Below are positions 16,700 to 36,517 of a stretch of DNA of 64,000 bases, in pieces. Numbering within the stretch: the stretch's first letter is position 1; every line of letters begins with the position of its first letter. The DNA is taken from contig NZ_BOPA01000020.1 in the NCBI RefSeq assembly GCF_016863515.1, positions 1 through 64,000 of the forward strand, written 5' to 3'. A model generated the notes under the pieces. That model made no database searches. It was not told the origin of the DNA and saw only the letters and a list, made by a program, of their open reading frames with translations. Position numbers and translations under genes: made by a program. The stretch comes from Micromonospora gifhornensis. GTDB taxonomy: Bacteria; Actinomycetota; Actinomycetes; Mycobacteriales; Micromonosporaceae.

Positions 16700-17749
16700 T
16701 TAGCACAAGCGTTCTACCGAACGGCGAAGCGTGTCGAGCACGGCGTCGACCACTCGGGCCCGGCCCCGCCCGTCGACCGCCGACCAGGCCCGCTGCGACA
16801 GCGCCGCCCGGTGTTGCGCACTGCCCAGCAGCGCGTCCAGGGTCCGCGCGGCGGCGGCCCGGGCGGTCGGGTCGGCGACCAGGGTCGGCAGGTCGCCGAG
16901 CCCGGCGGCCAGCCCGGCGGCGACCACCCGGTGGTACGACTCACGCTGGTTGTCCACCACGCAGACCAGCGCCGACGGCGCACCCAGACAGCACAGCTCC
17001 CAGGTCGACGTGCCGGCCGCGCTGACCACCAGGTCGGCGGCGGCGATCAGGTCCGGCAACCGGCCGGTCGGCGGCAGCACCGTCAGCGTCTGCCCCGGCG
17101 CCGGGACGAGCCGGGCCAGCCGGTCGGCCAGGTCGGGACGGCCGGCGACGACGGTGAGCGCCATCGGCCGGCCGGTGGACAGCAGCACCTCGGTCAGCAG
17201 CGGCGCCGCGCCGGCCGCGTCGGTGCCCCCGAAGAAGGCAAGCACCGTCGGACGGTCCACCGGCACCGCCGGGCGGGCCGCTGCCGGCCGGGCGGCCAGC
17301 ACCTCACCCCGCAGCAGGGCGTACGCGCTGCCGGCCAGCAGCCGTCCCGCCGGCACCACCAGGTCGGTGTCGAAGTTCTGGTCGAGGTAGAGGTCGGCGT
17401 CCTGCCCCCGGGTGTCGCCGTCGACGATCGCCAGGGTCACCACGGCCGCCGCACGCACCGCACCGGCCGCGGCCGGATCCAACTCGTACGAGTCGAGCAC
17501 CAGCACGTCCACCTCGTGTCGGCGTACCGTCTCGACCAGTTCCTCAGGCGTCTCCGGGCCCGGATGCCGTGGGATGCCTCGGGCGGCGAGTTGGTCGGCC
17601 GCCCAGTCGACGCCGGCCACCGTGCCGAACATCTGGACCCGAGCACCCCGGCTCAGGAACTCCTCACCGAGGGCGAGGCAGCGGACCAGGTGCCCGACCC
17701 CGCGCTGCGGCCCGGCGTCGCACCGCAGACCGACCCGTGGCGTGTTCAG
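16700..17749 (-). CDS. pseG: PseG/SpsG-type nucleotide-sugar hydrolase
   Basis: A 349-aa GT-B-like protein. PseG removes UDP from UDP-2,4-diacetamido-2,4,6-trideoxy-L-altrose in pseudaminic acid synthesis. The N-terminal signature VGLRCDAG...GVGHLVRCLALG is intact but lies upstream of the first in-frame ATG (17632). No ATG, GTG or TTG precedes it in frame. The best start is a CTG at 17747-17749 that overlaps the pseF stop (CTGA), with GGAGG 4 nt before it. The UDP-binding segment is SAAGTSTWE near residue 265. It is the last gene of a tightly overlapping operon. Confidence 0.88.
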   Translation of the reverse strand: MNTPRVGLRCDAGPQRGVGHLVRCLALGEEFLSRGARVQMFGTVAGVDWAADQLAARGIPRHPGPETPEELVETVRRHEVDVLVLDSYELDPAAAGAVRAAAVVTLAIVDGDTRGQDADLYLDQNFDTDLVVPAGRLLAGSAYALLRGEVLAARPAAARPAVPVDRPTVLAFFGGTDAAGAAPLLTEVLLSTGRPMALTVVAGRPDLADRLARLVPAPGQTLTVLPPTGRLPDLIAAADLVVSAAGTSTWELCCLGAPSALVCVVDNQRESYHRVVAAGLAAGLGDLPTLVADPTARAAAARTLDALLGSAQHRAALSQRAWSAVDGRGRARVVDAVLDTLRRSVERLC

Positions 17750-18480
17750 CTCTCCTCCAACCGCTTCTGCCGGACGTCGGCGTTGAGGGCCCGCAACTGC
17801 GGCTGCCCGTCGAGCCAGTCGGCGAGCTTGGCCAACGGCACGCTGACGTCGCCGAACTGCTCCACCACCGCCCGCACCAGCTGCCAGTCCGGCTCGGTGT
17901 CCAGGGTGAGCCGCAGCGCGGAACGATCCGGGGTCAGCGTCACGCCGAGCACCCGGAACAACTCCGGATGACGGTACGCGTACGAGGTGACGTGCACCCG
18001 GTGGTGCGCGGTGGCGAGCCGGTCCACGGCCCGCAACGCGTCGGCCCGGATGATCTCGACGTCCAGCCCGCGGGGCAGCGTACGGGCGATCGACGTGCTG
18101 ACGTAGTCCAGCCCCGACGCGCCCCGGTACACCCCGGCGACCAGGGCGACGATCTCCGGGTCGAGCAGCGGACAGTCGGCGGTGAACCGCATGACGGCGT
18201 CGGCGGGATACGCGTCGAGCGCACCGACGAACCGGGTCAACACATCGTCGACGGGCCCCCGGTGCCAGGCCACCCCGAGCCGGTCACACTCGGCGACCAC
18301 CGCGTCGTCGGAGCCGTCGGTGCTGGTCGCCACCACCAGGTCGGCGAGCACCCCGCTGTCCTGAGCAGCCCGCACCACCCGACCGAGCACACTGCGACCG
18401 GCCAGCGGGCGCAGCACCTTGCCCGGTAGCCGGGACGAACCCATCCGGGCCTGGACGATGCCCACTATCCGGTCACTCAC
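17746..18480 (-). CDS. pseF: SpsF/PseF-type cytidylyltransferase
   Basis: A 244-aa CMP-sugar synthetase of the SpsF branch, with the CTP-binding N-terminus IVGIVQARMGSSRLPGK and MRFTADCPLLDPE as the metal-binding segment. It should activate the nonulosonic acid with CTP before transfer. The GTG start overlaps the preceding methyltransferase gene by 8 nt (GTGAGTGA). It resembles Bacillus SpsF more than Campylobacter PseF, so the CMP-pseudaminate role rests on the neighbours pseB, C, H, G and I. Confidence 0.88.
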   Translation of the reverse strand: MSDRIVGIVQARMGSSRLPGKVLRPLAGRSVLGRVVRAAQDSGVLADLVVATSTDGSDDAVVAECDRLGVAWHRGPVDDVLTRFVGALDAYPADAVMRFTADCPLLDPEIVALVAGVYRGASGLDYVSTSIARTLPRGLDVEIIRADALRAVDRLATAHHRVHVTSYAYRHPELFRVLGVTLTPDRSALRLTLDTEPDWQLVRAVVEQFGDVSVPLAKLADWLDGQPQLRALNADVRQKRLEES

Positions 18481-20338
18481 GGTTGCCGTCCTTCCGGGTG
18501 ATGGCCGCACGGGCCCGTCGTTTCACGGCCCGTGCCCCTCGACGGGCGATGCGGGCCGGGGTGACGGCCAGCCGGGCGAGCTGGTAACTGACAGTTCCGC
18601 TGAGCAGGTCGAGCTTCGCCTCGGCCCGGCGCAGCGCCTTCTCCCGCGAGGCGAGCAGGTCCTCGGTCCAACTCAGCGCCGCAGCCAGCCGGGTGTTCTC
18701 GTCCCGCTGCCGCAGCCAGGCGTCGCGCAGCTGCTGGTAGCTGTGCCGTCCGGGCGGCAGGTCGGTGGACGTGACCGTCCGCAGCCCGGCCTCGGGGCCG
18801 CCGCGTCGATCGGCGCCCCGACTGTCCCGGTGTTCTGCCTCTCGGATGCGTCGGACCGCGGCGTCGACGTCCAGCGCGGCTTCGACGTCCAGCGCGGCGT
18901 CGACAACGGCCCGGTCGAAGTCCCGCCCGGCCACGCCACCGAGGACCACGGTCAGACCGATCGCATCCAGTGTGGAGGTCCACGGGTGGGCGTAGCCGCC
19001 GGTGAGTAGTTCGGTGGCGAAGCGCCACAGGGCCCGGGCCAGCACCACGTCGACAGGTAACGGGTCGTCGACCCGCCAGCTCGGATCGAGCACCGCGAAC
19101 CGGTCACCGGCGACGACCAGGTTGTCCACCCCGGCCAACGCCACCGCACCGGTGAGCGGGTCGGCGGCGGCCTGGTGGGTGAGCCAGTCGGCGTAGCCGC
19201 GTAGCAGTCGACGCAGCAGGGCCGTGTCGCGGCGCAGGCAGCCGTCCAGCAGCAGGTTGTGCAGCAGACGGCCGTCGGGCACCGGCCCGTCCGGCGCCGC
19301 CGGATCGAGGTGGGCGATCTCCCGACTGGCGTACGGCGCGGGCGTCGCCGCAGCCGCCACCGGCCCCGGTCGATGCCAGTGCCAGCCGTGCGGACCGTCG
19401 ACGACCTCGACGATCCGGGTATCCGAGCCGCCGCCCCACAGCAACACCGGTAGTCGCCCGTCGTCGGCCGTGGGCGTGGCGGTGGGCAGGCCGGCTGCCG
19501 ACATCGCCGGTTCGGGACCGAAGGCGGGCGGGCGGTGGGCGACGGCCAGCCAGGACGGGGCGAGGTCGCCCGCCCGGCCAGCGAACAGCGCGTCGACCGC
19601 CAGCCGGGCCGGGTCGGCGAGCACGAACCGGCCGGTGTAACCGTGGGTGCAGCTCTCCTGCAGGACCGCCTCGAACAGCCCGGAGGTGGTCCGCCGGGCC
19701 AGCTCGTCGGTCGCCAGCAACGCGGTGGTCGACTCCGGGCGGGGATAGCCGGCGTAGCTTCCCGCCACCCGCAGCCCCACCGCGTCGAGCCGTAGCCGCA
19801 ACTGGTCCAGGTTCGCCGGACGGCTCTGGTCGAGCACCCCGCCGAGGGTCCACTCGGCGTCGTCACGGCCGACGTACCAGCCGCAGGACGCCACCAACCG
19901 GTGGACACCGAGCGGGTTGTCCAGCCGCAGCAGCAGGACGCCGCCGGGGCGTACCGCCGCCGCCAACCGGGCCAGCACCCCGTCCCAGCCCAGCCGGGGG
20001 CCCTCCACCGACTCCACGGTGTCCAGCCCGGCGGCGGCGATCACCACGTCGTACGCCTCGTCGGCCGGTAGGCATGTTGCTCCGGCGGCCACCACCCGGT
20101 CGACCCGGCCGGCCAGCGCCGCCGCGTCCGGATAGCCGCGCAGCAGAGCGGTGACCCGGGCCCCGCCCAGCGCGTCGAGCACGGCCGGATCGACCGGCCC
20201 GGCCAGCAGCACGTCGGCACCGGGCGGCACCAGCCGCGCGACCAACGCGGCAAGCGGCCGGTTGCCGGCGTCGGCACGCTGGTCGGACCAGGTCAACATC
20301 TCGCCGCCGGGCAGCGTCACCGCCGTCTCGGTCGTCAC
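18473..20338 (-). CDS. large SAM-dependent methyltransferase-like protein of the sugar cluster
   Basis: A 621-aa protein. Residues 1-170 resemble a class I methyltransferase fold (VLLAGPVDPAVLDALGG near 42, AYDVVIAAAGLDTVE, then PGGVLLLRLDNPLG). The central region is unassigned. The C-terminal 120 residues contain a probable coiled coil (QLRDAWLRQRDENTRLAAAL onward) and a very basic tail (RRGARAVKRRARAA), as in proteins that act on large surface glycans. The GTG start has AAGGAGGA upstream and overlaps the previous gene by 4 nt. It may methylate the nonulosonic acid or its polymer; substrate unknown. Confidence 0.78.
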   Translation of the reverse strand: MTTETAVTLPGGEMLTWSDQRADAGNRPLAALVARLVPPGADVLLAGPVDPAVLDALGGARVTALLRGYPDAAALAGRVDRVVAAGATCLPADEAYDVVIAAAGLDTVESVEGPRLGWDGVLARLAAAVRPGGVLLLRLDNPLGVHRLVASCGWYVGRDDAEWTLGGVLDQSRPANLDQLRLRLDAVGLRVAGSYAGYPRPESTTALLATDELARRTTSGLFEAVLQESCTHGYTGRFVLADPARLAVDALFAGRAGDLAPSWLAVAHRPPAFGPEPAMSAAGLPTATPTADDGRLPVLLWGGGSDTRIVEVVDGPHGWHWHRPGPVAAAATPAPYASREIAHLDPAAPDGPVPDGRLLHNLLLDGCLRRDTALLRRLLRGYADWLTHQAAADPLTGAVALAGVDNLVVAGDRFAVLDPSWRVDDPLPVDVVLARALWRFATELLTGGYAHPWTSTLDAIGLTVVLGGVAGRDFDRAVVDAALDVEAALDVDAAVRRIREAEHRDSRGADRRGGPEAGLRTVTSTDLPPGRHSYQQLRDAWLRQRDENTRLAAALSWTEDLLASREKALRRAEAKLDLLSGTVSYQLARLAVTPARIARRGARAVKRRARAAITRKDGNRE

Positions 20339-21174
20339 GCTTCCTCCTTGTGCACAGCAGCCGTCCAACCGAGCAGTTCGCGCAACGCGGCCGGTGGGTA
20401 GCGGTGGTCGACGCCCAGCTCGGCGCGGGCGATCTCCACGGCGGTCGGCAGGTGCACCTGTTCGCCGTGCAACTCGGGCCACTGCCGCCGGATCCGGGCG
20501 GTACCGCCGAAGGTCGGATCCTCGTCGGCCAGCACCATCGGGTTGCCGTACACCGCAGGTTCGCAACCGGCCGCGATGCCGTAGAAGACGGCGCTGGTCA
20601 GCCGGTTGGAGGCGACCCGGGCGTGCCGGCGCAGTTCGGTGAGCTGGCGGTCCAGGAAATCCGGGTCGGTGCCGGACCACCAGTGCCCGCGGTAGCCGTG
20701 GCAGATGACCCGGAAACCCGCGTTCTCGTACCGGCGACGGACCCGGCGCATCCGGTGCTCGTGCCAGTAGAGGCAGACCGTGACCGGCCCGGGTTCGGTG
20801 TCCCGGATCTGGGCGATCAGCCGGTCGTGGTCGCCCTCGACGTGCTGGCCCTCCCAGCCGTGGAACGGGTACCAGATGGTGCCGGCCCGCTGCGGCGGCG
20901 ACTGCGGTTCGGGGCGCATCGCCAGCAGGTAGCCGAACGGTGCCCCGATCACGGTGACGTTGCGCCGCCCGACCGACCAGGCCCGCCGCCGGGTCTGCTC
21001 CGACCACAGCAGACTCGGGGTGCCCTCGGCGTACGGGTGTCCGGGGGCCAGGCCGTCACCGATGTTCCAGCCGTGCTGGACGTACCCGTTGATCCGCGGT
21101 GGATGCCCGTCGCCGAGGCCCGCGTACCGGGCCAGCACGTGGGCGTGGCCGTAGAAGTGGTTCGCGTGGTGCAT
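20335..21174 (-). CDS. hypothetical protein, possibly GT-B-like, in the pse operon
   Basis: A 279-aa soluble protein I do not recognise with certainty. A repeated pattern of strand-loop segments (YVQHGWNIGDG, TIWYPFHGWEGQH, VTVCLYWHEHR, ASNRLTSAVFYGIAAG) recalls the nucleotide-binding half of GT-B glycosyltransferases or polysialyltransferase-like proteins, in which the Asn/Ser-Arg segment binds the sugar nucleotide. The ATG lies 9 nt after the pseC stop, with the ribosome site GAGGGA overlapping that stop. A role in transferring or polymerising the sugar is inferred from position only. Confidence 0.65.
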   Translation of the reverse strand: MHHANHFYGHAHVLARYAGLGDGHPPRINGYVQHGWNIGDGLAPGHPYAEGTPSLLWSEQTRRRAWSVGRRNVTVIGAPFGYLLAMRPEPQSPPQRAGTIWYPFHGWEGQHVEGDHDRLIAQIRDTEPGPVTVCLYWHEHRMRRVRRRYENAGFRVICHGYRGHWWSGTDPDFLDRQLTELRRHARVASNRLTSAVFYGIAAGCEPAVYGNPMVLADEDPTFGGTARIRRQWPELHGEQVHLPTAVEIARAELGVDHRYPPAALRELLGWTAAVHKEEA

Positions 21175-21183
21175 CGGCGTCCC

Positions 21184-22374
21184 TCAGGTGACGGGGCGGA
21201 CCGGGACGCCAGCCGGTCGTGGAGGTCCAGGCCAAACTGGTCGCCGCAGGGCCGCGGCGAGCGCGTCGACGACACGCTCCTGGTCGCTGTCGCGCAGCCC
21301 CGGAAACAGCGGCAGCGACAACTGCTGGGCGTAGAACCCCTCGGCCACCGGGCAGCTGCCCCGCCGGTAACCGAGGTCGGCGAACGCCGGATGCCAGTGC
21401 ACGGGAAGGTAGTTGACCTGTACTCCGATGCCGGCGGCGCGCATCGCGTCGTACACCTCGCGGCGTCGACCGTCGAGCACCCGGATCGGGTACAGGTGCC
21501 AGGCCGGGCTCGCCCAGTCCCGTCGCCCCGGCGTCAGCACGCCCGGCAGGTCGGCGAGGGCTTCGTCGTAGCGGGCCACCAGTTCGGCGCGGCGGCGCAG
21601 GAAGGCATCCAGGCGGCGCAGCTGGCTGCGGCCCAGCGCGCAGAGCACGTCCGGCAGCCGGTAGTTCAGCCCGAAGGCGTGCACCTCCTGGTGCCAGCCG
21701 CCCTCGTCGGGCCACCGCAACTCGTCGCGTTCCCGGACCAGGCCGACGGTGCGGAACCGGCGAGCCCGGGTGAGCAGCTCGGGGTCGCCGGTGGCGACCG
21801 CGCCGCCCTCGGCGGTGGTCAGGTTCTTGGTGGGGAAGAAGGAGAACGTGGTCAGGTCGGCGAGCGAGCCGACCGGACGGCCCCGGTAGGTCGCGCCGAT
21901 GGAGTGGGCGGCGTCGGCGAGCAGCAGCGCGTCGCTGCCGGCGACAGCGGCCCGCAGCGCGTCGTAGTCGGCCGGGTGACCGGCGTAGTCCACCGCGGCG
22001 ACGACAGCCGTCCGCCCGGTGGTCGCCGCAGCCACCGCCGCCGGGTCGAGGGTGAACGTCTCCTCCTCGACGTCGGCAAAGACCACCCGCGCGCCCAACG
22101 CGACCGCGCTGCTCGCGGTGGCGACGAACGTCATCGGCGGCACGATCACCTCGTCGCCGGGGCCGACCCCGGCCGCCGCGTACGCCACGTGCAACGCGGC
22201 CGTGCCGTTGGAGACCACGGCCACCCCGGCCCCGCCGGCCCACCGGGACAGCTCCGCCTCGAAGGCGGCGACCTCGGGGCCGGTGGTGAGCCAGTCGCTG
22301 CGCAGCGCCGCGACCACTGCCGCGACGTCGTCGTCGGTCACCGACTGCCGGCCGTACGGCAGGAGAGACGTCAT
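21184..22374 (-). CDS. pseC: PseC-type PLP-dependent sugar aminotransferase
   Basis: A 396-aa DegT/DnrJ/EryC1 family enzyme. The PLP lysine lies in FSFFPTKNLTTAEGG; the substrate and cofactor segments SNGTAALHVA and ADAAHSIGA are intact. PseC adds the C4 amino group to the 4-keto sugar made by PseB. The ATG overlaps the pseB stop by 4 nt (ATGA). Within the wider family the assignment rests on the adjacent PseB; a perosamine- or bacillosamine-type enzyme would look similar. Confidence 0.92.
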   Translation of the reverse strand: MTSLLPYGRQSVTDDDVAAVVAALRSDWLTTGPEVAAFEAELSRWAGGAGVAVVSNGTAALHVAYAAAGVGPGDEVIVPPMTFVATASSAVALGARVVFADVEEETFTLDPAAVAAATTGRTAVVAAVDYAGHPADYDALRAAVAGSDALLLADAAHSIGATYRGRPVGSLADLTTFSFFPTKNLTTAEGGAVATGDPELLTRARRFRTVGLVRERDELRWPDEGGWHQEVHAFGLNYRLPDVLCALGRSQLRRLDAFLRRRAELVARYDEALADLPGVLTPGRRDWASPAWHLYPIRVLDGRRREVYDAMRAAGIGVQVNYLPVHWHPAFADLGYRRGSCPVAEGFYAQQLSLPLFPGLRDSDQERVVDALAAALRRPVWPGPPRPAGVPVRPVT

Positions 22375-23381
22375 GCTTCGCCACCGGCTGGCAGGCTCGC
22401 CGCCGTGATGCCGAGCATGTCGCGCAACTGCGGCACGCTGAGCCACTCGTCGTTGGTGTCCGACTGGTACGCGAAGCCGTCCGGCACCGGCGCACACTCC
22501 ACCGGCGGCTGATAGCCCCAGGTCGCGATGGTCGGCTGGACGATGAACCGGTCCTTGGCGATCAGCGTCCGCCGGCTGTCGTCCGGGGCGATCATCTCCT
22601 CGTGCAGCTTCTCGCCGGGGCGGATGCCGATCTCGTGGGTGGTGGCGTCCGGGGCGACCGCCTCGACCAGGTCGAGGATGCGCATGCTCGGGATACGCGG
22701 CACGAACAGTTCGCCGCCCTGCATCTGGTCGAACGAGTCCATGACGAACTGCACGGCCTGGTCGAGCGTGATCCAGAAGCGGGTCATCCGCTTGTCCGTG
22801 ATCGGCAGGCTTTTGCCCTCGGCGGCGAGCCGCCGGAACAGCGGCACCACCGAACCCCGGCTGCCCACCACGTTGCCGTAGCGCACCACGGCGAACCGGG
22901 TCGGGTGGTGCGCGGCGTAGTGGTTGGCGGAGATGAACAGCTTGTCGCCGACCAGCTTGGTGGCGCCGTACAGGTTGATCGGGCTGGACGCCTTGTCGGT
23001 GGAGAGCGCGATGACCTTGCGCACTCCGGCTTCGATCGCGGCGTCCACGACGTGCTGGGAACCGGTGATGTTCGTGGCGATGAACTCCGACGGGTTGTAC
23101 TCGGCCGTGTCGACCTGCTTGAGGGCGGCGGCGTGCACCACGTGGTCGACGCCGTGCATGGCGCGGGTCAGCCGGTGCCGGTCCCGGATGTCGCCGATGA
23201 ACCAGCGCAGCCGGGGGTCGTCACCGAGTTGCTGGCGCAGCTCGTACTGCTTGAGCTCGTCGCGGGAGAAGACCACCACCCGCGCCGGGTCGGCCTCGGC
23301 GAGGAGATGCCGCAGGAAGGTCCTGCCGAAGGAACCCGTACCCCCGGTGACGAGGATGGACGATCCACTCAGCTCGCTCAA
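22371..23381 (-). CDS. pseB: UDP-GlcNAc 4,6-dehydratase (5-inverting), PseB
   Basis: A 336-aa extended short-chain dehydrogenase: NADP motif GGTGSFGR, VVFSRDELKQYEL, and the catalytic STDKASSPINLYGATK (Asp, Lys, Tyr). The long match to the PseB/FlaA1 type identifies the first step from UDP-GlcNAc to pseudaminic acid. No in-frame ATG precedes the fold; a TTG with GGGAG 7 nt upstream is chosen, with another TTG at 23429 as alternative. It follows pseH after about 110 bp and overlaps pseC. Confidence 0.93.
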   Translation of the reverse strand: MSELSGSSILVTGGTGSFGRTFLRHLLAEADPARVVVFSRDELKQYELRQQLGDDPRLRWFIGDIRDRHRLTRAMHGVDHVVHAAALKQVDTAEYNPSEFIATNITGSQHVVDAAIEAGVRKVIALSTDKASSPINLYGATKLVGDKLFISANHYAAHHPTRFAVVRYGNVVGSRGSVVPLFRRLAAEGKSLPITDKRMTRFWITLDQAVQFVMDSFDQMQGGELFVPRIPSMRILDLVEAVAPDATTHEIGIRPGEKLHEEMIAPDDSRRTLIAKDRFIVQPTIATWGYQPPVECAPVPDGFAYQSDTNDEWLSVPQLRDMLGITAASLPAGGEA

Positions 23382-23489: not shown

Positions 23490-23999
23490 TCAGCGCCTAC
23501 GGCGGGCCGCACGATCGAGAGAAATGGGAATGACAGTGATTTCCCGACCGTCGTGAACCTCTGCTCGTCCGGTGCCTTCGACGAATCGAAACCGTCGGTT
23601 CATCTGGCGTACGGCGGTGTTGTGCGCGAGCACCTCGCCGTCGAGCCGGTCCAGATTCAGCACATCGAAGGCGTGGTCCACCGCTGCGCGCATGACGTCG
23701 ATCCAGGCGGGCAGCGTCTCGCCCCGCTCGGCCAGCGCGTCGGCATCCAGGTAGAAGCCCCAGGAGCCGGTACGCGGAGCGTCGAACCGCAGGTCGAAGA
23801 AGGTCACCACCCCGCAGGGCAGCCCGTCGCGCAGGTAGATCAGCACCCGCCGGGCGGGGTCGACCCGGACGGCCGCCCACCAGTGGGCGTGCTCGTCGGC
23901 GCTTATGACATGGTGCGTCCTGCTGGCCATTCGGTTGATTTCCTGATTACGCCAGGACAACATCAGGTTAACGTCTTCCTCGGTGGCGTCACGCAGCAT
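23490..23999 (-). CDS. pseH: GNAT N-acyltransferase, PseH-like
   Basis: A 169-aa GNAT enzyme with LMLSWRNQEINRMASRTHHVIS at the N-terminus, as in PseH/SpsD-type N-acetyltransferases of amino-sugar nucleotides, and the late motif LNLDRLDGEVLAHNTAVRQMNRR. It should acylate the 4-amino group before PseG acts. Whether the donor is acetyl-CoA or another acyl group is open, because acyl-activation genes start 77 bp away on the other strand. Confidence 0.88.
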   Translation of the reverse strand: MLRDATEEDVNLMLSWRNQEINRMASRTHHVISADEHAHWWAAVRVDPARRVLIYLRDGLPCGVVTFFDLRFDAPRTGSWGFYLDADALAERGETLPAWIDVMRAAVDHAFDVLNLDRLDGEVLAHNTAVRQMNRRFRFVEGTGRAEVHDGREITVIPISLDRAARRRR

Positions 24000-24076: not shown

Positions 24077-24328
24077 ATGACGGAATTGACTCGTGCGCGA
24101 ATTCGCGACCTCATGGGACAGGTGCTGGCCAATCAGGGCAAGGTGCTTCCCGATGACGACGACGCGGATCTGCGGGAGATCGGCTTCCGGTCGTTGGACT
24201 TCTCCGAGTTGGCCCTGCGGGTGGAGGACGAGACCGACGAGGAGTTGAACTTCGACGCGGCGGGACTGCGCCGGATCGCCACCGTCGGCGATGTCCTGGA
24301 CTTCCTCGCCGACCTCCAACGGCCGTGA
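24077..24328 (+). CDS. acyl carrier protein
   Basis: An 83-aa acidic carrier protein with the phosphopantetheine site GFRSLDFSEL (Ser near residue 41). It is followed without gaps by an AMP-forming ligase (4-nt GTGA overlap), a ketoreductase and a short PPTase-like protein. There is no ketosynthase, so it is not a chain-extending fatty acid or polyketide ACP by itself; it probably carries one short acyl group. It lies inside the pseudaminic acid gene island and is transcribed away from pseH. Confidence 0.92.
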   Translation: MTELTRARIRDLMGQVLANQGKVLPDDDDADLREIGFRSLDFSELALRVEDETDEELNFDAAGLRRIATVGDVLDFLADLQRP

Positions 24329-25569
24329 GCGTCGACACCGCGCGCCCGGCCGCACCCCGCCCGGCCGGCCTGGACAACCGGGTCGTGGTCGACGGCACCG
24401 CGTTGTCCTGGCGGGACCTGCCGGAGCTGCGCCTGCCCGCCCCGGTGGCGCTGCTCGCGCACCGTGCCCGGTACGCCCTCGCCGCCGCCCGCCACCACGC
24501 GGTGCACGGCACCGAACTGCTGCTCACCACGGCCGGCCGGGCCGACAGCGTGCTGCGCGCCGAACTGTCCGAGGCCGGCTTCACCGTCATCGACACCGGC
24601 GGCGCCGACCTCCCGCCGTCGCGGCCGCGTGCTGGCGAACCCGGCCGACTGTGGCTGCTCACCTCCGGCACCACCGGCCGCCCCAAGCGGGTCGGGCACA
24701 CCCTGGCGTCACTGACCACCGTCCGTGGCCGCCAACCCGGCCGCACCTGGCTGTGCCCGTACGCGCCAGGCAGCTACGCCTGGTGGCAGGTGGTGACCCT
24801 GTCGCTGACCCAGCCGGGTCAGCATCTGGTGGTGGTGGAGCCGGAGCAGCTCGACGACTGGCCGACGCTGGCCGCGACGCACGGGGTGGACGCGGCCTCC
24901 GGCACCCCGACCTTCTGGCGTCGGGCCCTGCACCGCGACCCCGCCGCCCTCGCCCGGGTGCCGCTGCGCCAGCTCACTCTCGGTGGTGAACCGGTCGACC
25001 AGACGATCCTGGACCGGCTCCGCGAGGTCTACCCCACCACCCGCATCTCCTGGATCTACGCCTCCTCCGAGGTCGGTGCGGCGATCGTGGTGCACGACGG
25101 CCGGGCCGGGTTCCCGGTCGAGTGGCTGGACCGCCCGGCACCGGGACGCCCCACCCTCGGCGTACGCGACGGGGAACTGGTGGTCACCTCGCCGTACCAC
25201 GGCGTCGGCCTGGCCGGCCCGATCCGTACCGGCGATCGGGTGCAGGTCGTCGACGGCCGGGTCCTGATCACCGGTCGACTCGACTCCGACGAGATCAACG
25301 TGGGCGGCAGCAAGGTCTCCGCCAGCGCGGTGCGGGACGTGCTGACCGCTCATCCGCAGGTGGCCTGGGCCCGGGTGGGTGCCCGGCGCGCGCCACTGCT
25401 CGGCCACCTGGTCGTCGCCGAGGTGGTACCCACCGGCACTGTCGGGCCGCCCGACGAGGCGGCGCTGGCGCGCTGGTGCGCCGACCGGCTGCCCGAGTAC
25501 GCGGTGCCCCGCCGGATCCGTCTGTTGCCCGAGATCCCCGTCAAGGAGACCCTGAAAAGCGATGTCTGA
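24325..25569 (+). CDS. AMP-forming acyl ligase for the carrier protein
   Basis: A 414-aa member of the adenylate-forming superfamily, about 100 residues shorter than usual because the N-terminal subdomain is reduced. The P-loop TSGTTGRPKR is near residue 113; YASSEVGAA (A5), the TGDRVQV and GRLDSDEINVGGSKV segments (A7-A8) and the C-terminal lysine in PVKETLKSD (A10) are intact. It should activate a small carboxylic acid with ATP and load it on the preceding ACP. The GTG overlaps the ACP stop. The binding-pocket residues do not tell me the substrate. Confidence 0.88.
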   Translation: MSVDTARPAAPRPAGLDNRVVVDGTALSWRDLPELRLPAPVALLAHRARYALAAARHHAVHGTELLLTTAGRADSVLRAELSEAGFTVIDTGGADLPPSRPRAGEPGRLWLLTSGTTGRPKRVGHTLASLTTVRGRQPGRTWLCPYAPGSYAWWQVVTLSLTQPGQHLVVVEPEQLDDWPTLAATHGVDAASGTPTFWRRALHRDPAALARVPLRQLTLGGEPVDQTILDRLREVYPTTRISWIYASSEVGAAIVVHDGRAGFPVEWLDRPAPGRPTLGVRDGELVVTSPYHGVGLAGPIRTGDRVQVVDGRVLITGRLDSDEINVGGSKVSASAVRDVLTAHPQVAWARVGARRAPLLGHLVVAEVVPTGTVGPPDEAALARWCADRLPEYAVPRRIRLLPEIPVKETLKSDV

Positions 25570-25591
25570 CCCCACCATGTCTGACCCCACC
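25562..25591 (+). repeat. 15-bp tandem duplication at the ketoreductase start codon
   Basis: Two exact copies of ATGTCTGACCCCACC in frame, duplicating the first five codons and the start ATG. Confidence 0.85.
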
Positions 25592-26335
25592 ACGTCCGCC
25601 CCGCCGGTTTCGCCCTCCACAGTGGTGCTCGTCTCCGGTGGTTCGCGCGGGCTCGGCCTCGCCATCGTCACCGACCTGCTCGATGCCGGCCTGCGGGTCG
25701 CGGCCTTCGCCCGCACCGTCACCCCGGAGTTGGCGAAGCTCGCCGCCAACCACCCGGACCGCTCGCATGTCGGCCCGGTCGACGTCACCGACCTCGCCGC
25801 CGTGCAGGCGTTCGTCCGGGCCGCCGAGCAACACCTCGGCCCGATCGACGGTCTGGTCAACAATGCCGCCGTCGGGCAGGACTCGCTGCACGTGCACACC
25901 GCCACCGCCGACCTGGCGGGGATCGTCGAGACGAACCTGACCGCGCCGCTACAACTGACCCGCCTGGTCGTACGCCGAATGCTGGCCCAGGGCCGACGCG
26001 GCCGGATCGTCAACATCACCTCGATCTGCGGGCAGCGCGGCTTCCCCGGCCTGGTCGCGTACTCGGCCACCAAGGGCGGCATGGACGCGGCCACCCGCTC
26101 CCTGGCCCGGGAGCTGGGCGGGCGGGTCCTGGTCAACGCCGTCGCGCCCGGCTTCTTCGCCTCGGAGATGTCGGCGGTGCTGGGCCAGACCCAACTGGAC
26201 CAGATCGTCCGCCGCACCCCGACCGGTCACCTGACCGAGCCGGACGAGGTGCTCCCGGTGGTACGGATGCTGCTGCGCGAGCAGACCAACATCAACGGCC
26301 AGGTCCTCGTGGTCGACGGTGCTGCCTCGATCTGA
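25562..26335 (+). CDS. 3-oxoacyl-ACP reductase-like SDR
   Basis: A 257-aa short-chain dehydrogenase: cofactor motif GGSRGLG, NNAAVG, catalytic Ser (NITSICGQ) and YSATK. Closest in feel to FabG, which reduces 3-ketoacyl-ACP to 3-hydroxyacyl-ACP with NADPH. The first 15 bp (encoding MSDPT) are duplicated in tandem, giving two in-frame ATGs 15 nt apart; the first overlaps the ligase gene by 8 nt. In this context it may make a 3-hydroxyacyl group, for example 3-hydroxybutyryl, on the ACP. Confidence 0.87.
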   Translation: MSDPTMSDPTTSAPPVSPSTVVLVSGGSRGLGLAIVTDLLDAGLRVAAFARTVTPELAKLAANHPDRSHVGPVDVTDLAAVQAFVRAAEQHLGPIDGLVNNAAVGQDSLHVHTATADLAGIVETNLTAPLQLTRLVVRRMLAQGRRGRIVNITSICGQRGFPGLVAYSATKGGMDAATRSLARELGGRVLVNAVAPGFFASEMSAVLGQTQLDQIVRRTPTGHLTEPDEVLPVVRMLLREQTNINGQVLVVDGAASI

Positions 26336-26786
26336 CCCCGCCCCGCCATCGGACGGGTCCGGGGCACCGTCGGTGGTCTCGCTGCTCGCGGTCGCCCACC
26401 GGCACCTGCGGCTCGCCGCTCCGGCCGAGTCGGTCGACGCGACCACCCGCAGCTATCTGGACGACGGCCGCTGCCTCGGCTGGTACGCACCGCCGGTGCC
26501 ACGATGGCGGGCGGCGATCGACGCCGAGCGAGTCGGCGCAGCAGTACCGACGGCGCTGGCCCGGCGCTTCGGCACCGGTGATTTCTGGGCCCGCTGGACC
26601 CGCGCCGAATGCCTGGCCAAGCTCACCGACGTCCCGATGGCCATCTGGTGGCAGCGGCACGGACTGGAGGTGCCGCCCCGCATCGACTGGCTGTGGCGCA
26701 CGCTGACCCTCGCCGACCTGGTCGTCACCGTCGCCTTCGTCGCCACCGACCGACCCCGCAACGCCACTGACGGCACCCCTACCTGA
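26319..26786 (+). CDS. short 4'-phosphopantetheinyl transferase-like protein
   Basis: A 155-aa protein whose second half has the PPTase signature FWARWTRAECLAKL, matching the W-[ST]-x-x-E-x-x-x-K core. The upstream metal-binding G-[VI]-D motif is not clear and the protein is shorter than Sfp-type enzymes, so it may be degenerate, or dedicated to the adjacent ACP. The GTG start overlaps the reductase gene by 17 nt; another GTG at 26371 is possible. Position as the fourth gene of an ACP operon supports the assignment. Confidence 0.6.
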   Translation: MLPRSDPAPPSDGSGAPSVVSLLAVAHRHLRLAAPAESVDATTRSYLDDGRCLGWYAPPVPRWRAAIDAERVGAAVPTALARRFGTGDFWARWTRAECLAKLTDVPMAIWWQRHGLEVPPRIDWLWRTLTLADLVVTVAFVATDRPRNATDGTPT

Positions 26787-26951: not shown

Positions 26952-27083
26952 TGGCCCTTTGCTCTGCTTCAACCCACGCAATAGCGTCCGACCAGGGAAG
27001 TTGTGGTGGTGAGGCTGCATGCCGCCTTGGTGGCTGCTCACCGAGGGTCACTGTTGCGTATGTTGAAGCAGAGCAAAGGGCCA
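26952..27083. repeat. 132-bp long inverted repeat between convergent operons
   Basis: Arms 26952-26981 and 27054-27083 pair at 28 of 30 positions: a perfect outer 22 bp (26952-26973 with 27062-27083), two mismatches, then ACGCAA with TTGCGT. Inside is a further GTGAG/CTCAC pair. The 371-bp gap between the PPTase-like gene and pseI (26787-27157) holds nothing else I can identify. It may be a large hairpin terminator for the convergent transcripts or a MITE-like remnant; no target duplication is visible. Confidence 0.8.
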
Positions 27084-27157: not shown

Positions 27158-28207
27158 TCAGATCAGGTCCCAGCTGAGGGGGGTGCCGCGTGTGACGTCG
27201 ACGGTGAAGTGGCGGCCCAGCACGCGGTCGATCTCCACTGGGGACAGTCCGCCGGCCGGTCGGATCGAGCGGACGTTGGCGGCGGTGACCTCGTCGCCGG
27301 CGCGGACGTCCGCCACCACGTAGAGCGAGCGGCGGAAGCGTAGCCCTTCCCGTTCGGCCGGGGTCGGGCCGATGGTGGTGCCGCCGAGTGCCGCGTGGGC
27401 GCGTTCCGCCTCGACCACCAGGGCCGACAGTTCCGCCGGGTTCAGGGAGAAGTCGGAGTCCACGCCACCGTCGGCCCGGTCCAGCGTGATGTGCTTCTCG
27501 ATGAAGCAGGCGCCGAGGGCCACCGACGCGACGGGCACGCCGATGCCGGGAGTGTGGTCGGAGAGGCCTACCGGTACGCCGAACGCCTCGGCGAGCACCG
27601 GGATGCGGCGCAGGTTGCTGTCGGCGGGTGGGGCCGGGTAGGCGGCTGTGCAGGCCAGCAGCACGATCCCGCCCGTACCGGCGGACCGGGCCGTACGGAC
27701 CGCCGCGTCGATCTCGGCCAGGGTGGCCATCCCGGTGGAGATGATCAGGGGTTTGCCGGTGGCGGCGACGAGCCGGATCAACGGCAGGTCGACAAGTTCC
27801 GAGGAGGCGATCTTGTACGCGGGCGCGTCCAAGCCCTCCAGCAACTCGACCGCCGTGGCGTCGAAGGGGGAGGAGAAGACCGTCAGGCCCCGATCGCGGG
27901 CCCGTTCGAAGATCGGACCGTGCCACTCGTACGGGGTGTGGGCCCGCTCGTAGAGCCGGTACAGGTTCTGCCCGCCCCACAGTTCGTGGCCGCCGGAAAT
28001 GCGGAAGGCCGGGGCGTCGACGTCGATGGTGATGGTGTCCGGCCGGTACGTCTGGAGCTTCAACGCGTGCGCACCGCTCTCGGCCACGGCGTCCACGATG
28101 GCCAGTGCCCGGTCCAGGTCACCGTTGTGGTTGCCGGACATCTCCGCCACCACGAAGGGACGTTCGCCGGTGCCGATCAGATGCGGCCCGATGGTGAGCG
28201 TGGTCAT
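27158..28207 (-). CDS. pseI: pseudaminic acid synthase, PseI (NeuB family)
   Basis: A 349-aa NeuB-family enzyme: FVVAEMSGNHNGDLDRA at the N-terminus and KLQTYRPDTIT are of the PseI type rather than sialate synthase. A TIM barrel with YKIASSELVDLPLI and the metal-binding FIEKHITLDR follows, then a C-terminal antifreeze-like SAF domain (about 285-349). It condenses the 2,4-diacylamino hexose released by PseG with phosphoenolpyruvate. The ATG overlaps the glycosyltransferase stop by 4 nt. Confidence 0.93.
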   Translation of the reverse strand: MTTLTIGPHLIGTGERPFVVAEMSGNHNGDLDRALAIVDAVAESGAHALKLQTYRPDTITIDVDAPAFRISGGHELWGGQNLYRLYERAHTPYEWHGPIFERARDRGLTVFSSPFDATAVELLEGLDAPAYKIASSELVDLPLIRLVAATGKPLIISTGMATLAEIDAAVRTARSAGTGGIVLLACTAAYPAPPADSNLRRIPVLAEAFGVPVGLSDHTPGIGVPVASVALGACFIEKHITLDRADGGVDSDFSLNPAELSALVVEAERAHAALGGTTIGPTPAEREGLRFRRSLYVVADVRAGDEVTAANVRSIRPAGGLSPVEIDRVLGRHFTVDVTRGTPLSWDLI

Positions 28208-29556: not shown

Positions 29557-30681
29557 ATGACCAGCGCACCGGTGGCGGCACCGCCGGGCTCCGCGACCGA
29601 CCGGGCCCTGGCCAGCCGGCTACCGTCGTTGACCGGGCTGCGGTGGATAGCCGCGCTGCTGGTCTTCGGCTTCCACGCCGGCACCATGCGGATCATCGCC
29701 GAGCCGGACTACCAGGCGGTCGTCGGCAAGGTCTTCACCCTGGGCCTCTCCGGGGTGCAGTTCTTCTTCATCCTCAGCGGCTTCGTGCTGGTCTGGTCGG
29801 CCCGACCTGAGGACTCCCGGCGGCGGTTCTGGCGGCGTCGGTTCGCCAAGATCTATCCGAACCACGTCCTGCTCTGGGCGTTGGCCATAGGGGCCGCCGT
29901 CTGGTTCGCCGATCCGATCAACCCCGTCGCGGCGCTGGAGAACCTGTTCCTGCTCCAGGCCTGGGATCCCCGTCCCGGGTACTTCTACAGCGTCAACAAC
30001 GTGAGCTGGTCGCTCTCCTGCGAGCTGTTCTTCTACCTGTGCCTGCCGCTGGTCCTGCCACTGGTGCGCCGGGCCCGGCCCTGGCACCTGTGGGCCGTGG
30101 TGATCGCCGTGCCGCTGCTGATCCTGGCGTTGTGGCCTGCCCAGACCCTGGTGCCGGAGCAGAGCCGATGGTGGTTCACCCAGGTGTTCCCCCTGGTCCG
30201 CTCGCTGGAGTTCTGGATGGGCGTGGCCGCGGCCGAGCTGATGCTGCGCGGGCGGTGGCGGGGTCCCGGCCTGCCCCTGGCGAGCCTGATCTTCGTGGGC
30301 ACCTGGGTGGTCGCCGCCGAGTGGATCCGGGCCGAGTTCTGGGCGGCGCTGCTGGCGGCGGCGTACATCCTGGTCATCGCCGCGGCGGCGGACGCCGACG
30401 TGCGGGGGCGTCGCTCCCCGCTGCGGTCGCGCCCGATGGTCTGGCTCGGCGAGGTCTCGTTCGCCTTCTACCTGGTGCACGTATTCGTGATCATGACGAT
30501 TCTCCGGGTCACCGGGGACTGGGGGACCGGCCTGCCCGGCTGGTGGGGCCCGGCCGCGGTGATCGGCTTCCTGGCCCTCACGCTGGGGCTCGCCGCACTT
30601 GTGCACCGCTTCGTCGAACAGCCGATGATGCGTCGCCTGGCACCGCGCCGATCGCCCCCTGCCGTCCAGCCTGGACGGTGA
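29557..30681 (+). CDS. acyltransferase 3 family membrane protein (OafA-like)
   Basis: A 374-aa integral membrane protein with about ten hydrophobic segments; FHAGTM near residue 47 carries the conserved His, and SFAFYLVHVF near 310 is the late family motif. OafA-like proteins O-acylate surface carbohydrates at the membrane. The ATG has GGAGGT 6 nt upstream. It is divergent from the GT2-pseI operon (231-bp gap) and may decorate the same polymer. Confidence 0.9.
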   Translation: MTSAPVAAPPGSATDRALASRLPSLTGLRWIAALLVFGFHAGTMRIIAEPDYQAVVGKVFTLGLSGVQFFFILSGFVLVWSARPEDSRRRFWRRRFAKIYPNHVLLWALAIGAAVWFADPINPVAALENLFLLQAWDPRPGYFYSVNNVSWSLSCELFFYLCLPLVLPLVRRARPWHLWAVVIAVPLLILALWPAQTLVPEQSRWWFTQVFPLVRSLEFWMGVAAAELMLRGRWRGPGLPLASLIFVGTWVVAAEWIRAEFWAALLAAAYILVIAAAADADVRGRRSPLRSRPMVWLGEVSFAFYLVHVFVIMTILRVTGDWGTGLPGWWGPAAVIGFLALTLGLAALVHRFVEQPMMRRLAPRRSPPAVQPGR

Positions 30682-32575: not shown

Positions 32576-32722
32576 GAAGGAGTTCCTGTACTCGTGCAGC
32601 ACAATTCAACACCCCCGATATTCCCCCGCCTCCACGGCACCGTGGTGCCTGCGCTCGCCGGTCCGCTCTCCGCAGCCTGAGCCAGGCCCCACCCGTCCAC
32701 CCCTCAGCCCGTGGAGGCTCTC

Positions 32723-33607
32723 GTGAAGCACACCCTCAAGCGTCAGCTCCGTAAGCTGGCCACCGAACGCCCCTACCAGCTCTTCGCCACGTCGGCGGTG
32801 GCCCTCGTGCTGGCCACCGGTGCCGGTGCCCTGGTCGCCCGGAGCGACGACAACCTGGTCGACGCGCCCACCGCCACCGCCGTGGCCGAGCTGCGCGACG
32901 ACAGTGCGGCCTCGCGTTCCCTCGCGCGGGTCGCTACCGCCCCCAGCAGCGACGCGCCCAGCAGTGCCGACCCGAGCAGCACCCCGCGCAGCGCCGTCCC
33001 CAGCAGTGCCGCGCCGAGCAGCGCCGCCGCCTCGCCGTCGGCGCGGGCCACCACGGCCGACCCGGACGTGGCCAGTAAGAAGGCCGCGCCGAAGCCGCCG
33101 GCGGAGAAGGTGCTGTCGTACGACTACCAGGCCCAGATCAACGGTTACTACTGCGGCCCGGCAGCGGTGCGCAACGCGCTCAGCGCCGCCGGCATCGAGC
33201 GCGGCCAGGAGACCCTCGCCGCCCAGATGGGCACCACCTTCGCCGGCACCAACTCGGCGTACGACACCACGCGGGCGCTCAACGCCGCGGTCAAGGGTGA
33301 GCCGTACAAGACCACGATGATTCCCGGTGGCGCGGCGACCCCGGCCCAGATGGACCAGCTTCAGGCCGATGTCGTGGCGGCCATCTCCGACGGGCGCGGC
33401 GTCGTGGTGAACGTCGCCGGCAGCGTCGTGGACACCGCCGGTGGCTGGCACTCCTTCCCCGGCGGCCACTACGTCGCCGTGGTCGGCTACGAGGACGAGG
33501 GTCGGATGGTGAAGATCGCCGACTCGGCCGACGCGTCGTACTACTCGTACTGGTTGAGCACGATCGACCTGGCCAACTGGGCTGCCACCCGGGGCTATTC
33601 GTCCTGA
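32723..33607 (+). CDS. secreted C39-like cysteine peptidase under riboswitch control
   Basis: A 294-aa exported protein: basic N-terminus, membrane helix or signal (LFATSAVALVLATGAGALVA, about 20-39), a Ser/Ala/Pro linker (about 65-125), then a peptidase C39-type domain with the catalytic Cys in NGYYCGPAAVRNAL and His in GGHYVAVVGY. The GTG at 32723 is chosen because GGAGG lies 5 nt before it. The c-di-AMP riboswitch upstream links it to cell-wall or osmotic control. Its target protein or peptide is unknown. Confidence 0.88.
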   Translation: MKHTLKRQLRKLATERPYQLFATSAVALVLATGAGALVARSDDNLVDAPTATAVAELRDDSAASRSLARVATAPSSDAPSSADPSSTPRSAVPSSAAPSSAAASPSARATTADPDVASKKAAPKPPAEKVLSYDYQAQINGYYCGPAAVRNALSAAGIERGQETLAAQMGTTFAGTNSAYDTTRALNAAVKGEPYKTTMIPGGAATPAQMDQLQADVVAAISDGRGVVVNVAGSVVDTAGGWHSFPGGHYVAVVGYEDEGRMVKIADSADASYYSYWLSTIDLANWAATRGYSS

Positions 33608-34785: not shown

Positions 34786-36483
34786 TCAGGTGGCGGGGGA
34801 GAACGGGGCGTCGCTGGCGGACCGGGGGGCCGGGGCGGCCCAGTGCGGGTCCAGTTCGCGCCGGGCGGCGGTCAGGAACCCCTCGGCGTACGTCTCGGTC
34901 GGGAAGTCCCCCAGGTACCGGCGGCGGGTGGCCCACCGGGCCTCGGCCAGGGGGTCGGTGTCCAGCAGTCGGGTCAGCACCTCGTCCACCTCGGCCAGGT
35001 CCCGACGCAGGACGTAGCCGGAGGCGGCCAGCGGGAACCGTTCCAGGAACCGGTCGCCGTCGACCCCGGTGTCGGTGACCGCGTACGGCTTGCCGGAGTG
35101 CAGCCAGTCGGACACCACCCCGGAGACGTCGGAGATCAGGGCGTCCGCGCGGTTCACCGACTCGGCCAGGGTCAGCGCGCCGGCGGCGGCACCGAACAGG
35201 TGCGGGCGACCGGTGCGGGCCCGGTCGGCGGCCAGCAGGTCGTGCAGCCGCCCCAACTGGCGGGCCGAGGCCGGGTTGTGGGCGGTGTACGGGTGGGGCC
35301 GCACGATCACCGTGGCCCCCCGGTCGAGCAGCCGGGTCAGCAGGGCCTCGGCGAACGGCAGGGAACAGTAGTCGGCGTCGGCGTGGTGCCCGGTCCAGGT
35401 GGGGGTGTAGAGCACGGTGGGGTTCGGCAGGCGACGGACCGGGCCGGTGCGCACCTCGATCGCCTCGACCTGGGGCCGGCCGACCACCACGAACTTGTCG
35501 GCCGGGATGTCCACCCCGGCCCGGGCGTACCTGTCGATGGCCGCCTCACCCGCGACGAAGATCCGGTCGAAGATCGCCGACACCGGGTTGGCGCTGGAGG
35601 CCTTGTCGCTGTCGCCGTGATGCAACTGGATGTGGGTGAGCTGGGTGAAGCGCAGGCAGTGGCTGTTCTTGGCGCCGTGGTTGACGTAGAACGCCGCGCG
35701 CAGGCTCGGCACCAGCACCTCGTCCATGCTGCGCAGGGTGGGGCAGTAGAGCACCGGAGCGGTGGTCGCCGCCGCGATGACCGGCAGCGCGTCCGGCTCC
35801 CGCAGCATCACCACGAACGGCCGTCCGATCCGCTCCAGGTACGGCAGCCACATGGTGACCTGGTACTCGGACCCGGGCGGGGCGGAGAAGTAGAGCAGGA
35901 ACTCCGGCTGGTGCCGGCGTAGCTCCCGGGTCACCGGGGAGCCACCGGAGGCGGGACGCAACCGCCGCTGGACCAGTTTGACGGCGACCGCGCCGACGGC
36001 CCCACCGGCCAGCAGGCTCGCCGCCAGGGCGACGACAGCGGGCAGCGCCGCCAGTGCGGCAAGCGCCAACACCGCGAGCAGGGCGGCGACCAGGTCACCG
36101 AGGCGGGCGGTGACCTGCGGCACCCAGGTGCGTACCGGCAGGTTGGCGGCGCGGAGCTCCAGGTTCCCCGCGTCGCGCAGCGGGCCGGTGAGCGCCATCA
36201 GCCCCAGCAGGATCAACGCGGTACCGGCCAGGGCCGGGTCGAAGCCGGCGTCGAGCTGCCGGGCGTAACCGACAAGCACCCCGGCCGCGATCAGTGTGGT
36301 TTCCGCACCGCTGTCCGCCCCGGGGCGCACCCGACGTTCCCAGACCGTGGCGGCGAGGGCGAGCACCGAGAGCGCGAGCCCCCAGGTGGTCGCGCCGGTG
36401 AGCGCGACCACGATGAACGCCAGGACTGCCGCACCGGTGGCCAGGCCCCGGGCGGCCAGTTTCCTGACCAGGTCACCACGCAT
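34786..36483 (-). CDS. CDP-glycerol/ribitol glycerophosphotransferase-like polymerase (TagF family)
   Basis: A 565-aa protein with about five N-terminal membrane helices (residues 15-165) and a C-terminal GT-B transferase domain. The TagF-type motifs are HIQLHHGDSDKASS, VLYTPTWTGHH, VIVRPHPYT and ISDVSGVVSDWLHSGKP, where the His residues and the SD pair bind the CDP-polyol and acceptor. It should build a polyol-phosphate chain of teichoic-acid type. It lies 34 bp behind the bifunctional CDP-polyol synthesis gene, which would supply its donor. Confidence 0.9.
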   Translation of the reverse strand: MRGDLVRKLAARGLATGAAVLAFIVVALTGATTWGLALSVLALAATVWERRVRPGADSGAETTLIAAGVLVGYARQLDAGFDPALAGTALILLGLMALTGPLRDAGNLELRAANLPVRTWVPQVTARLGDLVAALLAVLALAALAALPAVVALAASLLAGGAVGAVAVKLVQRRLRPASGGSPVTRELRRHQPEFLLYFSAPPGSEYQVTMWLPYLERIGRPFVVMLREPDALPVIAAATTAPVLYCPTLRSMDEVLVPSLRAAFYVNHGAKNSHCLRFTQLTHIQLHHGDSDKASSANPVSAIFDRIFVAGEAAIDRYARAGVDIPADKFVVVGRPQVEAIEVRTGPVRRLPNPTVLYTPTWTGHHADADYCSLPFAEALLTRLLDRGATVIVRPHPYTAHNPASARQLGRLHDLLAADRARTGRPHLFGAAAGALTLAESVNRADALISDVSGVVSDWLHSGKPYAVTDTGVDGDRFLERFPLAASGYVLRRDLAEVDEVLTRLLDTDPLAEARWATRRRYLGDFPTETYAEGFLTAARRELDPHWAAPAPRSASDAPFSPAT

Positions 36484-36517
36484 CTCGGTGCTGCCTTCCG
36501 CGGTCGTCGTGCGTCGG

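Follow-up and report, generated by a model that had tools for sequence, protein, structure and literature searches.

What is an acyl carrier protein doing in a gene island for a bacterial surface sugar? The question is raised by a 64,000-nucleotide stretch of Micromonospora gifhornensis DNA (contig NZ_BOPA01000020.1, positions 1 to 64,000; hereafter the window). A sequence-only reading of the window had described a cassette of four overlapping genes, for an acyl carrier protein (ACP), a short AMP-forming ligase, a FabG-like reductase of the short-chain dehydrogenase/reductase (SDR) family and a protein resembling phosphopantetheinyl transferases (PPTases), placed between pseH and pseI on the opposite strand. 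That description holds: the open reading frames (ORFs) occupy exactly positions 24077-26786, successive ORFs overlap by 4, 8 and 17 bases, the cassette is divergent from the pseH-like GNAT gene and convergent with pseI, and, as the reading had also stated, neither a ketosynthase nor a condensation domain was matched by Pfam in the four proteins. In the sequences compared here a change of PseH class accompanies the presence or absence of the cassette, whereas pseI and its neighbours are retained. Judged from these sequences, it is likely that the cassette is an acyl-donor module for pseudaminic acid, i.e. that it makes a hydroxyacyl-ACP used by the PseH-like GNAT. In other words, the acyl group carried by a cell-surface sugar is probably determined by the cassette. 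The earlier suggestion of a dedicated acyl donor for the amino sugar thus gains support both from the co-occurrence of the cassette with PseI and from the PseH class that changes with it.

The PseH class and the cassette

Islands were fetched from all 23 PseI-bearing Micromonospora genomes without the ligase and from 21 of the other 65, which bear the cassette (every third of a list, two replaced by hand, plus G138). In the cassette-free islands pseB, pseC, orf279 and pseI are 79-95% identical to those of the window. The identity of PseH to the window protein is 46-52% in these islands vs. 73-79% in the cassette-bearing ones, and the pseH gene of the cassette-free islands sits elsewhere, between a glycosyltransferase gene and pseI. 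The two PseH classes (45 PseHs) are 39-51% identical and are separated by 1.16+0.73 substitutions per site, whereas the branch that sets off the PseI proteins of the same islands measures 0.078. At the level of sequence, this swap of PseH is the strongest evidence for a dedicated acyl-donor cassette.

The PseH tree was extended with 35 cassette-linked PseHs of other genera, taken from the 44 loci L118-L161 after omission of three Micromonospora loci (L119, L120, L138) and of six in which no PseH was found; the tree was rooted at the midpoint and long branches were flagged. The window PseH groups with 24 of the 35 (Kribbella, Actinoplanes, Hamadaea, Actinophytocola and Nocardioides; 100/99). 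The remaining 11 branch outside it, and the 23 cassette-free PseHs have none of the 35 among them. It is conspicuous that three residues follow the same division: all 57 cassette-linked PseHs have D, R and N at positions 69, 131 and 134, where all 23 others of the genus have G, L and H. As an outside control, ten cassette-free PseI loci of a phylum-wide sample were inspected. Four of them contain a PseH-like protein (>40 bits), in which position 69 is not D, position 131 is I or L and position 134 is Y; the PseH of a cassette-bearing locus of the same sample (G456) has D, R and N.

The window's PseH-like GNAT, a member of the cassette-linked class, is encoded at 23490..23999 on the reverse strand, 77 bases separating its start from that of the divergent ACP gene. 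It scores 68.7 bits against TIGR03585 (cut-off 93.1 not reached), and ten PseH relatives from both classes score 63.0-87.3 bits. Its AF2 model (pLDDT 95.6) finds SpeG (4.7e-11) and H. pylori PseH (4ri1, 1.6e-10) by Foldseek; the model is confident in fold, but cannot distinguish the use of CoA from that of ACP. The protein is similar to the PseHs of H. pylori and C. jejuni in fold and place in the pathway and, unlike them, falls below the equivalog cut-off and lacks, by eye, the GxG loop and the Tyr that the four outside PseHs have. The lost GNAT GxG loop was considered as a sign of ACP use and rejected, the PseH class of the cassette-free islands being without the loop too (by eye).

Linkage to PseI within and beyond the genus

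Among 151 Micromonospora genomes the ligase was matched at E 1e-20 in 69, of which 66 were accepted as orthologs by score, and PseI exceeded its cut-off in 88. Ligase matches <400 bits (G063, G085 and G093, and also second copies or pieces) and PseI matches below the cut-off (G061; second copies in G077, G080 and G089) were removed before the 66 and the 88 were tabulated. Both proteins are present in 65 genomes, the ligase alone in 1, PseI alone in 23 and neither in 62; i.e. PseI is found in 65 of the 66 ligase-bearing genomes vs. 23 of the 85 without the ligase. The sole ligase genome without PseI (G052) is a draft of about 590 contigs, and its ligase lies on a contig of 9.4 kb. Where the ligase gene and pseI share a contig they are convergent (61 of 61) and 1.2-8.2 kb apart; in four genomes they are on separate contigs.

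For other genera a pattern scan of named genomes was used, and the best 80 of 94 relatives were examined; several of these loci come from genomes of the genus survey, and the two counts are not additive. The 80 loci include Micromonospora, Actinoplanes, Hamadaea, Kribbella, Actinophytocola, Nocardioides, Marmoricola, Knoellia, Intrasporangium, Terrabacter, Flexivirga, Allobranchiibius, Leekyejoonella, Raineyella, Propionicicella and others. An ACP is found in 78 of them, an SDR in 79, a PseH-like protein in 74, PseI in 68 and the PPTase-like protein in 59. The order ACP>ligase>SDR is kept in 78 of the 78 loci that hold all three core genes, which argues against a chance arrangement. Twelve of the 80 loci contain no PseI within about 10 kb (several are cut by a contig end), and PseI is present elsewhere in 11 of these 12 genomes; the exception is Nocardioides marmoriginsengisoli, in which the ligase stands alone and no PseI was found on another stretch. 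The sequence-only reading had suggested such a survey of neighbourhoods and had named, as what would refute it, a cassette that occurs mostly without nonulosonic acid genes. Both in the genus and among the named loci the reverse is seen, the cassette being seldom without PseI.

The pseH gene is divergent from the cassette and within 203 bases of it in 58 of the 74 PseH-bearing loci, and 4.3-5.8 kb off in 16 Kribbella-type loci. While pseI lies beyond the cassette in Micromonospora, it adjoins pseH in Knoellia and Nocardioides; pseH and the cassette remain neighbours across genera, Kribbella-type loci excepted. In the phylum-wide sample 3 of 396 genomes have the ligase (E up to 1e-40), and all three belong to the 13 with PseI over its cut-off (Fisher p 2.8e-5).

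The cassette-free islands of Micromonospora often have a carrier set of another kind. In 13 of the 23, a second set (type B, ACP-SDR-AMP ligase-LuxE-LuxC) is encoded between pseI and pseB, on the strand opposite to theirs (L034:10575-15492, and L033, L035, L036, L040, L042, L044, L045, L047 and L049-L052); three more keep just the ACP, one of them with an SDR remnant. The two cassettes were found together in none of the 21 fetched cassette-bearing islands, and no LuxE or LuxC match was obtained in these 21 islands, in the 80 named loci or among the window island proteins scanned. Type B underwent at least 3 changes on the tree. A bond between type B and its own PseH class was considered and rejected: the PseH persists both in the islands where only the ACP of type B is left (3 of 23) and in those that have lost type B altogether (7 of 23). 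Because PseH is unchanged when type B is lost, type B is not tied to PseH as the window cassette is.

Cassette proteins, proposed reactions and alternatives

All four cassette genes are on the forward strand. The ACP (83 aa; 24077..24328) matches PF00550 (PP-binding) at 26.4 bits, above the cut-off of 20.8. Its S39, in the motif GFRSLDF, is invariant in 12 aligned sequences and would, judged from the family, be the phosphopantetheine site. The short AMP-forming ligase (414 aa; 24325..25569) matches PF00501 (AMP-binding, 66 bits) and PF13193 (AMP-binding_C, 40.2 bits), both over the cut-off. In 13 sequences its motif TSG[ST]TGRPK is invariant save for the S/T position, and K407 and K411 are invariant as well. 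The solved structures closest to it are adenylation domains and CoA ligases, and none of the NCBIfam models exceeded its cut-off among the best 25 of 54 matches. On the basis of these sequences we propose that the ligase loads an acid onto the ACP. The FabG/MupS-like SDR ketoreductase (257 aa; 25562..26335; adh_short, 157.5 bits) has SGGSRGLG at 25 and the residues S154, Y167 and K171, whose catalytic roles we take to be those of SDRs generally. Its best PDB relative is MupS (4yxf, E 1.1e-50) and the next is a FabG (E 3.4e-37); the 3-oxoacyl-ACP reductase model TIGR01830 gives 175.2 bits, and its cut-off of 297.75 is not reached.

The fourth protein (155 aa; 26319..26786) has no Pfam match at E up to 1, the PPTase model included, no NCBIfam match and no match in a sequence search of the PDB. 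Foldseek with its AF2 model (mean pLDDT 85.6) returned weak matches, with AcpS on top (E 0.15). In a structural second look 45 of 50 rows were named PPTases or AcpS and one was FlgT, the best Z being 7.0, a level that according to the tool's warning may reflect merely a common arrangement; four further rows (7ed0, 7ed1, 7ed2 and 4hc6) are presumably PPTases or AcpS too. D68, E70, W93, E97 and K101 are invariant in 22 sequences, and we take the D-x-E pair and the E...K motif (D68, E70, E97, K101) to be the metal-binding acids and motif of PPTases. As the sequence families give no support, the PPTase label rests on the model, the weak structural matches and the invariant residues. We propose that this protein activates the ACP; as the window genome has four other PPTases over the cut-off, the ACP may be able to do without it.

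From the gene content we infer the following reactions. The PPTase-like protein, or a housekeeping PPTase, would attach phosphopantetheine to the small ACP. The short ligase would activate a short carboxylic acid with ATP and load it onto the ACP, and the SDR would reduce the loaded acid to a hydroxyacyl-ACP. The PseH-like GNAT would acylate the UDP-sugar that PseB and PseC produce, transferring the hydroxyacyl group to its 4-amino position; PseG, PseI and PseF would then act, and the finished sugar would bear the hydroxyacyl group in place of acetyl at N7. Finally, the pseudaminic acid would probably be built into a wall glycopolymer. We have good confidence that the window's PseH-like GNAT is the user of the acyl-ACP. 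A hydroxyacyl group is known at N7 from the 7-N-glyceroyl pseudaminic acid of Tannerella forsythia (PMC9912281).

As to the identity of the acyl group, the ACP-ligase-SDR trio resembles the priming cassettes of mupirocin and thiomarinol, which makes 3-hydroxypropanoyl and 4-hydroxybutanoyl candidates besides 3-hydroxybutyryl. The thiomarinol enzymes make 4-hydroxybutyryl from succinyl-CoA, and we take the gene names on plasmid pTML1 to be TmlQ, TmlS and TacpD. For mupirocin, MupQ (adenylation), MupS (reductase) and MacpD (ACP) make 3-hydroxypropionyl-ACP from malonyl-CoA (PMC10098928). In these cassettes, as in the window, an adenylating enzyme, a FabG-like SDR and a free ACP are encoded together, and the window SDR is 43-44% identical to MupS/TmlS (44% to the SDR of pTML1) and 38% to a FabG. 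Unlike the window, pTML1 has the genes in the order ligase-SDR-ACP in a row, followed by a polyketide synthase gene, and its cassette feeds a polyketide, not a sugar. By this analogy it is quite possible, if a little short of probable, that the SDR acts in a MupS-like manner on a dicarboxyl thioester, giving 3-hydroxypropanoyl or 4-hydroxybutanoyl. More tentatively, a mupirocin-type trio may have been recruited to sugars. It would turn dicarboxylyl-CoA into an omega-hydroxyacyl-ACP (3-hydroxypropanoyl or 4-hydroxybutanoyl), which the GNAT would use instead of acetyl-CoA for N7; trio and GNAT would be one exchangeable unit in actinobacterial wall islands, and the trios that stand beside other acyltransferases in Azospirillum and the Rhodobacterales would likewise serve other surface sugars.

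The donor might instead be a 3-hydroxyacyl-ACP such as 3-hydroxybutyryl-ACP, a 3-oxo acid being loaded, reduced by the SDR and used by the PseH-like GNAT. The TIGR01830 match and the 38% identity to a FabG agree with this, and a bacterial amino sugar that bears 3-hydroxybutyryl has been described, together with predicted acyltransferases for this group (PMC3628348). The SDR, however, falls short of the cut-off of that model and is nearer to MupS/TmlS than to that FabG, and no gene for making a 3-oxo acid was seen among the named neighbours, although no search was aimed at one. We regard such a donor as rather unlikely, and 3-hydroxybutyryl made from a 3-oxo acid is doubtful to the same degree. 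Another route would take the cassette product to the OafA-like acyltransferase (29572-30681; PF01757), 2.8 kb from the cassette, or to another enzyme of the polymer, and not to PseH. An ortholog of this acyltransferase is present in 21 of 21 fetched cassette-bearing islands, but also in 15 of the 23 cassette-free ones (72-81% identical), whereas the class of PseH changes with the cassette. For this reason the acyltransferase was rejected as the main user, and the route as a whole seems improbable. Of the two users that the sequence-only reading had named, the PseH-like GNAT is thus retained and the nearby acyltransferase is not.

Aminoacyl loading has parallels in the Dlt and Alm systems, and an aminoacyl or another non-reduced acyl group might be loaded here as well, with the SDR acting on the sugar and not on the carrier. 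The two best PDB relatives of the ligase, both adenylation domains of nonribosomal peptide synthetases, would suit this explanation; with a profile the best relative is a malonyl-CoA ligase. Nevertheless, ligase and SDR stay together although the genes around them vary widely and in some loci belong to natural-product clusters, in keeping with an ACP-bound substrate, and we know of no keto-sugar step that the Pse pathway lacks. We give this explanation little credence. That a natural-product priming cassette merely landed in the island and takes no part in sugar synthesis is very improbable: related trios do occur in natural-product clusters, but the linkage with PseH is conserved in no fewer than seven families, among which the position of pseI varies.

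Several observations weigh against a hydroxyacyl donor delivered through PseH, or against its mupirocin-like version. All 23 contrasting PseHs come from one genus, and the 22 cassette-bearing islands of the genus that were used form one clade in the PseI tree, so the 65 co-occurrences in 66 genomes are not 65 independent events. Both PseH classes of the genus are without the GxG loop and without the Tyr of the four outside PseHs (by eye), and this loss, being common to both, does not mark the use of ACP. Seven of the 23 cassette-free islands, one of them (L041) a 10-kb contig, have a PseH of the other class and no carrier gene that we could find, i.e. the pathway as such needs no carrier. Moreover, the PPTase-like gene was undetected in 18 of 19 Kribbella-type loci and present in one. 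The window ligase is only 24% identical to TmlQ, the two fall in separate clades and orthology to TmlQ is not indicated; the grouping of the SDR with MupS/TmlS has a support of just 81/88, and that of the trio SDRs apart from FabG 91/88.

Related gene sets and the surrounding island

Comparable sets are found in Gram-negative bacteria. The group II (pseudaminic acid) flagellin islands of Aeromonas contain genes for ACP, 3-oxoacyl-ACP reductase, AMP synthetase, LuxE and LuxC (PMC7874193), and the same five functions are spread over the island types of Enterobacteriaceae flagellin islands (PMC4875605); the describers suggest a liposugar (PMC7874193, PMC4875605). These sets are like the window cassette in having carrier, ligase and reductase within a glycosylation island. 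They differ in LuxE and LuxC, which the window cassette does not have, and in that no PPTase is named for them in the accessible portions of the two papers. The type B set is the Micromonospora counterpart of the Aeromonas gene set. For Shewanella, the accessible part of the description has a reductase gene and no carrier (PMC3765264).

Three of 29 plasmid records with a related ligase and four of 21 from the SDR search were examined. Two Azospirillum plasmid islands (plasmid p3 of A. brasilense Sp7, L166, and L172) contain ACP-ligase-SDR in the order of the window together with pseI and flagellin, and the A. brasilense island with the trio also contains a GNAT. Their ligases are 41-42% and their SDRs 45-47% identical to those of the window; they differ from it in an extra KAS III and a hydrolase, in flagellin in place of wall polymer genes and in that no PPTase is listed in the two stretches. 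In Haematobacter and Qingshengfaniella a gene annotated as an acyltransferase precedes ACP-ligase-SDR amid genes for surface sugars, in the former with aminotransferase and epimerase genes and in the latter with a glycosyltransferase gene. Bradyrhizobium has ligase-SDR-ACP before a polyketide synthase gene, as on pTML1. The Burkholderia record has a ligase, an SDR and a small hypothetical protein, followed by a 6.3-kb gene annotated just as SDR family. From these sequences the trio seems to be an all-purpose source of a carrier-bound acyl group, and what the group is used for is suggested by the genes nearby, which include a ketosynthase gene in antibiotic clusters and an acyltransferase gene in those for sugars. 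Ligase-SDR pairs with 36-41% ligase identity also occur in natural-product-like clusters (L055-L060). Carrier-protein genes were confirmed in L056 and L057; L057 has a transglutaminase-like protein, and L056 has, by eye, transporters and a ketosynthase-like fragment.

Among the matches listed in a search of open-licence literature (titles and beginnings of abstracts), we found no acyl-ACP cassette in actinobacterial pseudaminic acid islands and nothing on how the wall sugars of Kribbella or Micromonospora are acylated; the accessible portions of PMC13317340 and PMC7371886 did not bear on these points either. The parts are known; their combination was not found described for actinobacteria in this literature, the related sets being those of Aeromonas, enterobacteria and Azospirillum. 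Pseudaminic acids that bear N-acyl groups other than acetyl do exist, the 7-N-glyceroyl form being an example. Our comparison of genomes links a single donor cassette to a single class of acyltransferase and yields residues and strains for testing: cassette-bearing and cassette-free species of one genus are predicted to have the same sugar except for one acyl group. It also suggests an interpretation of the 'fatty acid' genes of Gram-negative flagellin islands, at whose role the describers only guessed, and to which a recruited mupirocin-type trio, if true, would give a meaning. Kribbella carries the cassette, and the chemistry can therefore be checked there too; its main wall polymer is described as a teichuronic or teichulosonic acid (PMC6113628).

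By its sequences the island that flanks the cassette is a real pseudaminic acid island, with PseB and PseI over their equivalog cut-offs. The pse and pse-like genes are all on the reverse strand: pseI, pseudaminic acid synthase (27158..28207; TIGR03586, 461.1 bits, cut-off 340.25); pseB, the inverting UDP-GlcNAc 4,6-dehydratase (22371..23381; TIGR03589, 489.6 bits, cut-off 407.75); and a pseC-like aminotransferase (21184..22374), for which TIGR03588 is the best model at 396.1 bits, slightly below the cut-off of 423.5. The pseF-like cytidylyltransferase (17746..18480; PF02348, 93 bits) and the pseG-like UDP-sugar hydrolase (16700..17632; PF04101, 19.5 bits, below the cut-off of 22) owe their pse names to position. 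TagB-like (PF04464) and TarI/TarJ-like (IspD plus SDR) genes lie nearby at 34786-38020, and a wall glycopolymer is therefore a fair guess for the destination of the sugar.

Two proteins of the island without a Pfam match, encoded at 18473-20338 (621 aa) and 20335-21174 (279 aa), have relatives in 60 and 58 of the 80 cassette loci, across several families, and might serve to transfer or modify the sugar. Between the PPTase-like gene and pseI there is a 38-base inverted repeat (26952-26989 / 27046-27083, 87% complementary); its exact 20-base core occurs, among 180 loci, only in the three that cover that very place. Near one side of the island, 13208-14431 encodes a repeat-containing protein with a carbohydrate-binding look (by eye), and near the other side 32711-33607 encodes a C39-like peptidase (PF13529).

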